Of a stretch of 64,000 bases of DNA, positions 2,256 to 44,700 are shown one piece after another. The stretch is from Aquabacterium sp. J223 (GTDB lineage: Bacteria; Pseudomonadota; Gammaproteobacteria; Burkholderiales; Burkholderiaceae_C): positions 310,001 to 374,000 of the forward strand of contig NZ_CP088297.1 in NCBI RefSeq assembly GCF_024666615.1. Reading direction: 5' to 3'. The notes under the pieces were generated by a model. The model worked only from the letters and a program-made list of their open reading frames with translations, made no database searches and was not told the origin of the DNA. Numbering within the stretch: position 1 is the first letter of the stretch; the number at the start of each line of letters is the position of its first letter. The translations under genes were made by a program, and so were the position numbers.

Positions 2256-4241
<1,986 letters not shown>

Positions 4242-39541: not shown

Positions 39542-41031
<1,490 letters not shown>

Positions 41032-41047
41032 GCGGCCGGTCGTCGGC

Positions 41048-43106
41048 TCAGATCGCGAGCGGGTCGACGTCCACCGCCCAGCGGGCGATGCCGCGGTGCC
41101 GGCCGCGCAGCACATGCCAGTCGGGCAGCGCGGCCCGCAGCACGTGCTGCAAGGCGGCCCGCGACGGCGACTCCAGCAGCAGCTGGCGCCGCTCGGTGTC
41201 GGCCACGCGCGAGATCGGCGGCGCCACCGCGGGGTAGGCGATGAGCGAGGCGCCGGCCTCCGCCGCCCGCGCTTCGGCCTGCTGCCCGGCCTCCGCCAGG
41301 AAGGCCTCCGCCACCGCGCCGTCGCGCGCCTCGGCACGCAGCAGGGCCAGGCTGGCGAAGGGCGGCAGGCCGGCGCCGCGCCGTTCGGCCAGTTGCGCGG
41401 CGGCGAAGCGCGGGTAGTCGTGGTCGCGCAGCGCCGCGTACAGCGGGTGCTGCGGATGCCAGGTCTGCAGCCACATTTCGCTGGGCCCCATCGCCGCGTC
41501 GCGGCCGGCGCGGCCGGCCGCCTGCATCAGCAGGGCGAACAGCCGCTCGGCCGCGCGGAAGTCGCTGCTGAACAGCGCGCCGTCGGGGTTGACCGCGGCC
41601 ACCAGCGTCATGCGGCGGAAGTCGTGACCCTTTGGCCACCATCTGCGTGCCGACCAGCACGTCGACCTCGCCGGCATGCACCGCCTGCAGCCGCGCCTGC
41701 AGCTCCCCCTTGGCACGGGTGCTGTCCGCGTCGATGCGGCCGATGCGGGCGCCGGGCAGCAGGTCGGCGAGCTGCTCCTCCAGCCGCTCGGTGCCGCGGC
41801 CCAGGGCATGCAGGTCCAGGTCGCCGCACTGCGGGCAGGCCTGCGGCACGCGCGCCGCCGCCGCGCAGTGGTGGCAGCGCAGCACCCGCTCGGCCTTGTG
41901 GAAGACCTGCCAGGCGCTGCAGTGCGGGCAGCCGCTCTTCCAGCCGCAGGAGGTGCAGTGCAGCACCGGCGCATAGCCGCGACGGTTGAGCAGCAGCAGG
42001 CTCTGCTCCCCGCGTTCCAGCCGCAGGCGCAGCGCCTCGAGCAGCGGCGGGGCGATGGCGCTGGGCGGGCCCTTCGGCTTGGGGAGCTGGTTCCAGTCGA
42101 CCAGCCGCACCCGCGGCAGCGCCGCGGCGCCGACGCGCGCCGCCAGCGTCAGGCGCCGGTAGCGGCCTTCCTCGGCGCGCTGCCAGGTCTCCAGCGACGG
42201 CGTCGCCGAGCCCAGCACCACCGGCAGCCGCTCGGACTGCCCACGCCACACCGCCAGGTCGCGCGCCGAGTAGCGCGCCCCCTCCTGCTGCTTGTAGGAG
42301 GGATCGTGCTCCTCGTCGACCACGATCAGGCCGAGCCGCGGCATCGAGGCGAAGACGGCCAGCCGGGTGCCGAGCACCAGGTCGGCGTCGCCGGTGTGCG
42401 CGGCGAGCCAGTGCTGCAGCCGCTGCGCCGGGGTGAGGCCGCTGTGCAGGGTGACCAGCCGCCGGCCGGCGAAGCGCCGGGCCAGCCGCTCGGTGAGCTG
42501 CGGCGTGAGGTTGATCTCCGGCACCATCACCAGCACCTGACGACCCGCGGCCAGCGCCTGCGCGGCCGCGTGCAGGTAGACCTCGGTCTTGCCGCTGCCG
42601 GTGACGCCGTGCAGCAGCAGCGGCTGCGACGCGGCCGGACCGTCGGACAGCGCGGACGCGATGGCGGCCACCGCGGTGGCCTGCTCCTGGTTCAGCGGCG
42701 GCGGCTGGTCGGCGTCGGCGACCGGTGGCGCGCGGCGCTTGCGCCGCCGTCGGCGCTCCAGCGCGGCGTCGTCGAGCTGGCGCAGCTCGGGCGGCAGCAC
42801 GGCCAGCGCCAGTTCTCCCAGCCCCCGCTGGTAGTAGCCGGCGGCGAACGACACCAGCCGCCGCCAGCTTTCGCCAAGGGGAGGCAGGCCGGTCAGCACG
42901 GCGGCCACCGCCTTGACGGTCCAGTCGTCGCCCTCCGGCGACGGCGCCTCCGCGGGATCCCAGACGATGCCGCACACCTCGCGCCGGCCGAGCGGCACCC
43001 GCACCAGCGTGCCGGCGGCCAGGGCCCGCCCGCTTTCGTAGTCGAGCACGCCCCCGAGCCCGCTGTGCTGGGGTGCCTCCACCGCGACACGCAGCCGCAG
43101 GCTCAT
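41048..43106 (-). pseudogene. priA: Primosomal replication protein PriA, frameshifted as read
   Basis: The N-terminal part (from MSLRLRVAVEAP; Walker A GVTGSGKTE, DEEH box, zinc clusters CTSCGWKSGCPHC and CHHC...CPQC) runs in one frame up to QMVAKG. The rest, HDFRRMTLVAAVNPDGALF through AAGRAGRD to the end, is in the next frame. One surplus base in CCCTTTGG near 41628-41633 accounts for this; without it the protein is 685 residues and complete. PriA restarts stalled forks and is seldom dispensable, so a sequencing error is likelier than a true mutation. The start ATG has GGTGGG upstream. Confidence 0.9.
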
Positions 43107-43455
43107 CCACCCACCGCCCGGCACTTCCACCAAATCACATGAGAAAAGGCGCCTAAGCCCATGATTCGAATCGGTTTTTCAAGCTGTCCACTCGTTCTGT
43201 GGATAACTTTGTGGGCAAGGGTCTGATGGCGCCGCTAAACGCTTGATCTGCTTGGGTTCCGCTTGCAATGCCGCCTTTTCGGGCAGGGACGGCTTCTCAA
43301 TGAAATCAAGCACTTACGAAGGCCGAAGGAGCGCGCTCTACCGCTTTGCAGCAATTGTTACCGTGTGCCCTTGGCAAACCGCTTTTTGGGGATAAGTCAA
43401 GCCCTGTGACGCCAATCTCTTCCACTTACCGACTTGACGGGACGGGCGGCAGGCC
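43107..43455. other. AT-enriched intergenic region between hemE and priA
   Basis: About 350 bases without a gene, clearly less GC-rich than its surroundings. It holds one perfect DnaA box on the minus strand (43198-43206), a two-mismatch copy 12 bases on (43210-43218) and a one-mismatch TTATCCCCA (43387-43395, minus strand). It should also hold the priA promoter. It could be a replication-related DnaA-binding region or simply a DnaA-regulated promoter. Confidence 0.5.
43198..43206 (-). promoter_or_regulatory. Perfect DnaA box
   Basis: TTATCCACA on the minus strand, identical to the E. coli consensus R1 box, followed 12 bases away by TTGCCCACA with the same orientation. Confidence 0.65.
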
Positions 43456-44550
43456 TCAATCGGCCGCGGCGCGAAGGCGGCGCGAATGGCCGTGCACGGC
43501 CTCCACCAGCGCCTGCACATGCTCCGGCGGCGTGTGCTGGCTGATGCCGTGTCCGAGGTTGAAGATGTGGCCGGCCCAGCGCCCGTCCGGACCCTGCGGC
43601 GGGCCGAAGGCGTCCAGCACCGCCCTGGCTTCGGCCGCCACCGCGTCCGGCGGCGCGAAGAGCGCCGCGGGGTCGAGGTTGCCCTGCAGCGCCACGCGGT
43701 CGCCGACCCGGCGACGGGCCTGGGCCAGGTCCACCGTCCAGTCCACCCCGACCACGTCGCAGCCGGTGTCGGCGATGGCCTCCAGCCACAGGCCGCCGCC
43801 CTTGGTGAAGACGATCACCGGCACCTCACGGCCGTCCGCATGCCGGGTGAGCGACTGCACCACCTGCCGTGTGTAGGCCAGGCTGAAGCGGCGGAAGGCG
43901 GGGTCCGAGAGCACCCCGCCCCAGCTGTCGAACACCATCAGCGCCTGGGCGCCGGCCTCCACCTGCGCATTGAGGTAGGCCGCCACGGCGCGGGCGTTGA
44001 CCTCGAGCAGCCGGTGCATCAGGTCGGGGCGGCTGTAGAGCAGGGTCTTGACGGTGCGGTAGTCGTCGGAACCGCCGCCTTCGACCATGTAGCAGGCCAG
44101 CGTCCACGGGCTGCCCGAAAAACCGATCAGCGGCACCCGGCCGTTCAGCGCGCGGCGGATGCTCGAGACCGCGTCGAAGACGTAGCGCAGCCGGTCGAGG
44201 TCCGGCACCTGCAGCGCCGCGATGGCCGCCTCGTCGCGCAGCGGGCGGGCGAAACGCGGGCCCTCGCCTTCCGCGAAGGACAGGCCCAGGCCCATCGCAT
44301 CGGGCACGGTGAGGATGTCGGAGAACAGGATGGCCGCGTCCAGCGGGTAGCGTTCGAGCGGCTGCAGCGTCACCTCGGTGGCATGGCCGGGATCGGTGGC
44401 CAGCCCCATGAAGCTGCCGGCCTTGGCGCGGGTGGCGCGGTATTCGGGCAGGTAGCGTCCGGCCTGGCGCATCAGCCAGACGGGGGTATGGTCGGTGGGC
44501 CGGCGCAGGCAGGCGCGCAGGAAGCTGTCGTTGATCAGCGGGGCGGGCAT
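43456..44550 (-). CDS. hemE: Uroporphyrinogen decarboxylase
   Basis: This enzyme decarboxylates uroporphyrinogen III to coproporphyrinogen III in heme synthesis. The 364 residues match the family: substrate-binding [11 protein letters not shown] near residue 28, catalytic Asp in [43 protein letters not shown] and [15 protein letters not shown]. It lies upstream of priA on the same strand, a pairing usual next to the ATP synthase operon in Burkholderiales. Confidence 0.97.
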
Positions 44551-44700
44551 CGACGGATTATCGGGGCCGCCCTTCGTCCGACCGGGCATGTGCACCGCGC
44601 CCGACACTTGAAACCCCGGCCCGCGCCGGAACCTTGCGGGCACGGGCGGGGGGCACATGCCTTGCACCCACCGCCCGCCAACCCGAAGGAGCACCGCACC

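Follow-up and report, generated by a model that had tools for sequence, protein, structure and literature searches.

Genes and motifs of the hemE-priA gap

The stretch of DNA analysed (the window, 64,000 bp in length) comprises positions 310001-374000 of the 4,656,067-bp contig of Aquabacterium sp. J223. Within it, two leftward genes, hemE and priA, flank an intergenic gap of 349 bp (43107-43455) with a GC content of 0.556, against 0.720 window-wide. The hemE gene (43456-44571, minus strand) was assigned by HemE matching and open reading frames, its open frame extending to 44694. The first part of priA (41628-43106, minus strand; start codon at 43104-43106) was assigned from its translation and open reading frames, up to an apparent frame change at about 41,620-41,640. 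The front of priA lies in the frame of the open reading frame 40872-43133 and the remainder in that of 41048-41974, which may reflect a sequencing error or a genuine mutation.

Three DnaA boxes, TTATCCACA, TTGCCCACA and TTATCCCCA, have been located in the gap, all on the minus strand. Box A, TTATCCCCA, lies at 43387-43395 and the perfect box TTATCCACA, termed box I, at 43198-43206, about 92 bp upstream of the priA start codon. The weak box TTGCCCACA (43210-43218), also found by motif matching, departs from TTATCCACA by two mismatches and starts 12 bp from it. The initial annotation, which had reported a perfect box, a weaker same-strand copy 12 bases off and a one-mismatch box in a gap of lower GC, is thus confirmed in each of these points. 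Box I is the first box of a core resembling that of a DnaA-reactivating sequence (DARS). A box II-like motif (43184-43192, plus strand) stands opposed to it after 5 bp and carries six of the nine letters of the inverted consensus, and a possible box III-like stretch (43175-43183, plus strand; CTTGAAAAA on the minus strand) has been picked out by eye in comparison with Escherichia coli DARS2. The gap also holds three matches to the IHF consensus, quoted as WATCAAnnnnTTR in PMC10380432: an exact site, WATCARNNNNTTR, at 43304-43316 on the plus strand, and two sites with one mismatch each on the minus strand, at 43236-43248 and 43154-43166. The first of these coincides with a conserved block of the alignment described below, and the last with the conserved block AATCA....CTTAG. 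Three genes of the IHF/HU family are present in the genome, with IHF and HU not separated. A TTGACT motif beside box A has been noted by eye as a candidate for a sigma-70 promoter.

Judged on the window alone, the number of DnaA boxes is not striking, with four matches at up to one mismatch against 1.39 expected, and four or more in 6 of 100 shuffles. Across the whole 4.66-Mb genome, perfect TTATCCACA occurs five times (at 353,198, in the hemE-priA gap, and at 412,970, 581,210, 1,200,768 and 1,267,822) and a reversed control pattern once; one of the five perfect sites lies immediately upstream of dnaA. A chance origin of the boxes in the gap is unlikely chiefly because of their conservation in relatives, more than because of these counts.

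Conservation and distribution of the element

HemE was sought in 100 genomes of the same family, one per genus, and was matched in 98; the 30 best-scoring of these 98 loci were read. Perfect TTATCCACA is present in the gap at 27 of the 30, the other three carrying a box with one mismatch, and an upstream TTATCCCCA or TTATGCACA is found in 29. With 13 extra hemE-priA loci, taken from genomes whose chromosome is in a single contig, a total of 43 loci yielded 52 units of the element, 44 of them with box A, which lies on the strand of box I and some 189 bp upstream of it. The spacing between the two boxes is 186-192 bp in 37 units, 198-199 bp in six and 179 bp in one, so that successive groups of values differ by roughly one turn of the helix. 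Tandem tripling of the element has been detected at two loci (L031, 489-1475, and L042, 2604-3509; genera G061 and G077), and at least two units occur in several other genomes, complete ones among them.

An alignment of 40 genera, A1, was made from these loci, omitting three without box A at the searched distance (L035, L102 and L107) as well as second and third tandem units. Its conserved blocks are box A, AAGTnnTTGAT, ACAAAGTTATCCACA and AATCA....CTT. The conservation of boxes A and I in A1 is partly a matter of selection, since both patterns were required for entry; no such requirement applied to IHF sites or box II. At least one exact IHF site is nonetheless found in 40 of 40 elements, at 1.57 exact WATCARNNNNTTR sites per element compared with 0.01 in dinucleotide shuffles. 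Upstream of box A, a GTGAGTGAGCGCTCAGG-like block with a palindromic middle has been observed in a subset of genera (A1 columns 1-20; L024, L025, L028 and L032).

A sequence-only profile, R1, was built from A1; it matches the window at 43144-43415 on the minus strand, the window's own locus being one of the 40 used in its construction. Of 200 genomes taken from the order, 196 gave matches, spread over 51 labelled families, the four genomes without a match to R1 being G117, G158, G208 and G226. Neighbouring genes were examined for 56 R1 loci, where HemE and PriA were found together at 37, PriA only at three, XseA with ExbB at seven, XseA only at two, and none of these at seven. The element therefore sits beside priA in 40 of the 56 loci and beside xseA in nine. 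At the 27 loci from outside the family, which had no share in building the profile, the corresponding numbers are 18 for HemE with PriA, one for PriA, four for XseA with ExbB, one for XseA and three for none.

The second copy, beside xseA, is present in all 17 same-family genomes examined, including that of J223, and retains the core, with box A mostly absent. In J223 this copy (3,260,857-3,261,008; L193, about 3,860-4,010) is degenerate, with TTGTCCACA and a poor box II. Taking dnaA as a proxy for the origin, the priA copy lies at a median of 9.7% of the chromosome from dnaA (range 1.3-18.6) and the xseA copy at 38.4% (2.3-49.1), a paired difference over the 17 genomes with p=3e-5 (Wilcoxon). 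The priA copy keeps to the dnaA-proximal half of the chromosome, and the xseA copy is mostly remote from dnaA, with three nearer exceptions (G015, 18.4%; G017, 2.3%; G026, 17.7%). A further full-length copy occurs in G074 (L337, about 4585) and G007 (L338, about 5174) between genes read by eye as metG and minC. Perfect DnaA boxes also occur as other same-strand pairs, spaced by 124-156 bp, in G003, G004 and G018 (L343, L344 and L345) near an apparent ribB, likewise named by eye, where R1 matches are weak.

A scan of named genomes with the core pattern returned at least 119 stretches. Among those listed, at least 29 neighbour HemE and PriA, at least 16 PriA, at least two XseA and ExbB and at least seven UvrB, while at least 65 have none of the ten proteins tested. 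The matches listed place the pattern between hemE and priA in Acidovorax, Comamonas, Ralstonia, Collimonas and Roseateles, between xseA and exbB in Rubrivivax gelatinosus, at priA in Cycloclasticus and, with priA within the stretch, in Dyella; among them, it is also found in two Rodentibacter species at uvrB, the location of DARS1 in E. coli.

Comparison with the E. coli DnaA-regulating sites

Boxes I and II of DARS are opposed (PMC8682772), and E. coli DARS1 and DARS2 are situated in the promoter regions of uvrB and mutH (PMC5835720). Their cores read TTATCCACT-N5-TGTGGATAA in DARS1 and TTATCCACA-N5-CTGGGATAA in DARS2, and that of the window TTATCCACA-N5-AGTGGACAG. When an inverted box was slid along the aligned priA-side elements (n=40), the mean agreement peaked at an offset of +14, with 4.70 of 9 letters, the next best offset reaching 3.80. 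At the xseA locus the peak likewise fell at +14, with 6.33 letters against an offset mean of 2.22 (n=12 of 14, with two copies left out that lack the box I pattern, that of J223 among them). The opposed boxes thus recur at the E. coli spacing at both loci, with box II often weak: only eight of the 40 priA-side copies have seven or more of its nine letters, and some have next to none.

The profile was run on 12 sources, three E. coli K-12 loci among them. Apart from the window, it scored highest at the E. coli DARS2 locus (18.3 bits, E 1.2e-4), where 172 E. coli bases align with 173 model positions across the core and an IHF-like site. Under default filters the E. coli DARS1 and datA stretches gave no hit at E values up to 10. 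In an unfiltered nhmmer comparison of four E. coli stretches, the scores were 12.9 bits for DARS1, 11.1 for DARS2, 4.0 for datA and 3.7 for oriC, and 300 shuffled versions of the DARS2 stretch reached at most 9.2 bits.

Taken together, these comparisons point to a candidate betaproteobacterial DARS in the hemE-priA gap, a reading that we regard as probable, although still short of firm. It draws on the match of the core geometry to DARS1 and DARS2, with the +14 peak at both loci, on the ranking of both above datA, oriC and the shuffles, on the IHF sites and the three IHF/HU genes, and on the breadth of occurrence in the order and the core beside uvrB in Rodentibacter. The element shares with DARS2 the opposed boxes with 5 bp between them and an IHF-like site almost equally far from the core, and the exact IHF sites in every aligned element agree with the DARS2 subtype; it differs in its place at priA instead of mutH, in the extra same-strand box A and in the weaker box II of many copies. 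DARS1 has the same opposed boxes 5 bp apart, but lies elsewhere and escaped the profile at default filters, and the available descriptions ascribe no IHF site to it. Against the reading stand this miss of DARS1, the weak box II of many copies, the degenerate xseA copy of J223 itself, the datA-like combination of box A with IHF sites, and the situation in E. coli, where no DnaA box with up to one mismatch occurs in the 4 kb around priA. The E. coli xseA stretch does contain a perfect box, but inside guaB.

That datA-like combination makes datA the main rival. Under this explanation DnaA would bind the same-strand boxes A and I, joined by IHF bending, and its ATP would be hydrolysed, restraining re-initiation shortly after origin firing. 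The same-strand boxes with IHF sites between them at a set spacing of about 189 bp do recall the minimal E. coli datA, for which reviews give a length of 183-187 bp, boxes that share one direction and a single IHF site (PMC5742627, PMC10380432), and the median distance of the priA copy from dnaA resembles the approximately 10 centisomes indicated for datA in PMC4585315. Yet the profile score for datA is below the best shuffle of the DARS2 stretch and below both DARS sites, the opposed box at +14 is foreign to datA, where no such core is described, and the xseA-side locus keeps the core mostly without box A. Having been the initial identity considered, datA was demoted to a rival once the profile matched DARS, and it now appears improbable.

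The boxes might instead mainly regulate priA, as a promoter controlled by DnaA and IHF that leaves the DnaA nucleotide unaffected. The distance of box I from the priA start codon is in keeping with this, as is the constancy of the neighbour, the element staying with priA in 40 of 40 priA-type loci, of which 37 also have HemE. The same core and IHF block recurs, however, at xseA in each of the 17 genomes examined and between the apparent metG and minC in two others, which leaves exclusive promoter control with a slender chance. Promoter and DARS functions are compatible with each other, both E. coli sites likewise lying in promoter regions (PMC5835720). Plain titration, in which the site merely binds DnaA and shrinks the free pool, would accommodate the tandem copies, three at each of two loci and at least two in a number of complete genomes. 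It is very improbable, accounting by itself neither for an opposed core of fixed geometry nor for the phasing of the boxes and the presence of IHF sites. The initial annotation had offered a DnaA-controlled promoter or a titration site as the modest option; it was right in kind, as a DnaA site outside the origin, and the anatomy argues for a DARS-like DnaA/IHF site over either of the two functions named.

Position of the replication origin and implications

In Caulobacter the replication origin adjoins hemE, and on this basis the initial annotation had raised an origin in the gap. The gap and the Caulobacter origin have in common the hemE neighbour, the DnaA boxes and the IHF-like sites. The parallel now looks incidental, since the element follows priA and not hemE, HemE being the sole neighbour in none of the 40 priA-type loci. 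The dnaA gene of J223 (413,040-414,497) is 60 kb away from the site, a distance of 91-673 kb in 16 relatives. GC skew in J223, followed over 200-600 kb, is too weak for a decision.

GC skew was also followed in two relatives. Across 20 windows, each of 20 kb, G003 has a mean of -0.0210 to the left of a cluster of boxes at 3.27 Mb (seven windows, SE 0.0046), +0.0309 from the cluster up to the hemE-priA site, which lies at 3.895 Mb (eight windows, SE 0.0115), and +0.0298 beyond the site (five windows, SE 0.0133). The sign is therefore positive on either side of the site and the turn lies 0.4-0.7 Mb off, bounded only to about 3.2-3.5 Mb because skew is close to zero in the windows immediately to the right of the cluster; dnaA, at 3.325 Mb, falls inside this interval. 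In G071 the skew leans negative at 110-390 kb and positive at 440-850 kb, with a noisy turn near 0.40 Mb, single contradicting windows and two positive windows at the far left; box clusters lie at 395 kb and 399 kb, and the hemE-priA site, at 754 kb, is probably away from the turn.

KOPS-like motifs (GGGHAGGG) are too few in J223 for an origin test. In G071 they lean forward at 370-740 kb (28:6), consistent with a turn near 0.4 Mb. In G003 their ratios of 14:17 on the left, 18:24 between and 14:3 on the right indicate a turn near 3.6-3.7 Mb, at neither the box cluster nor the hemE-priA site. The motifs were dropped as an origin test on account of this disagreement with GC skew in G003, which, together with the default-filter miss of DARS1, has lowered our confidence in the DARS reading.

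Clusters of perfect boxes were examined in seven genomes, where they lie at a distance of 2-50 kb from parS. At up to one mismatch they share one arrangement in all seven, in either direction: a minus-strand box is followed after 28 or 40 bp by a plus-strand box, and this after 116 or 119 bp by another plus-strand box. In J223, parS sites were found at 511.6 and 512.8 kb, and the dnaA-dnaN gap contains degenerate DnaA boxes at 414,613 (minus), 414,641 (plus) and 414,760 (plus), spanning 414,613-414,768 (L013, 14,613-14,768). Their order, minus/28/plus/119/plus, is that of the clusters near parS in the relatives, which makes the dnaA-dnaN gap, 61 kb from the hemE-priA site, the likeliest origin of J223 as judged from sequence. 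The position of parS serves as support only: with a stricter pattern parS was found in 15 of 20 genomes, and in G017 it lies 1 Mb from dnaA. Origins of related organisms are described in two papers, one placing the skew transition of Cupriavidus metallidurans about 90 kb from dnaA, beside three perfect boxes (PMC2864759), and the other leaving the exact origin of Burkholderia cenocepacia chromosome 1 uncertain (PMC4948915).

The hemE-priA gap is thus probably not where the chromosome starts to replicate, and an origin of the Caulobacter kind, although suggested by the DnaA boxes, IHF-like sites and lowered GC and uncontradicted by the weak skew of J223, is rejected as highly improbable on the skew of G003 and, more weakly, G071, on the box clusters elsewhere, including the pattern recurring near parS and in the dnaA-dnaN gap, and on the direction of the atp operon, which would oppose the fork, a counter-argument that the initial annotation had soundly made.

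If the gap does act as a DARS outside the origin, its working can be pictured from the E. coli model (PMC5742627, PMC10380432 and PMC4585315). ADP-DnaA would assemble on boxes I and II, IHF would bend the DNA, and ADP would be released so that DnaA could reload ATP. The resulting rise in DnaA-ATP would serve the following round of initiation, at an origin located outside the hemE-priA gap and in J223 probably between dnaA and dnaN.

Concerning the reach of such sites, one review considers sequences like DARS1 and DARS2 to be conserved in many proteobacteria (PMC10380432); another gives beta- or gammaproteobacteria (PMC5742627), and the paper cited there says gammaproteobacteria (PMC4245941). 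A literature search found neither priA nor xseA described as the location of a DARS, and any claim of novelty is limited accordingly, since most subscription papers fall outside its coverage.

Like uvrB and mutH, priA and xseA serve in DNA repair or restart, a parallel that may carry meaning or be due to coincidence. A wider scheme, possible but doubtful, would have an order-wide pair of DARS, early-replicating at priA and late-replicating at xseA, that form a DnaA-ATP clock set by how far each lies from the origin, with DARS placed systematically in repair or restart promoters; the priA copy might then switch between recharging and hydrolysis, conceivably through its extra same-strand box and an IHF loop. 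If true, DARS in the promoters of such genes would couple DnaA recharging to repair.

The findings also carry a caution, in that DnaA boxes near hemE are insufficient for calling an origin. Control of the DnaA nucleotide by chromosomal sites has been worked out in E. coli, and an element present in 196 of 200 genomes, in two syntenic places at differing distances from dnaA, would allow this scheme to be put to the test in a further group and raises the question of why such sites occupy the promoters of repair genes.
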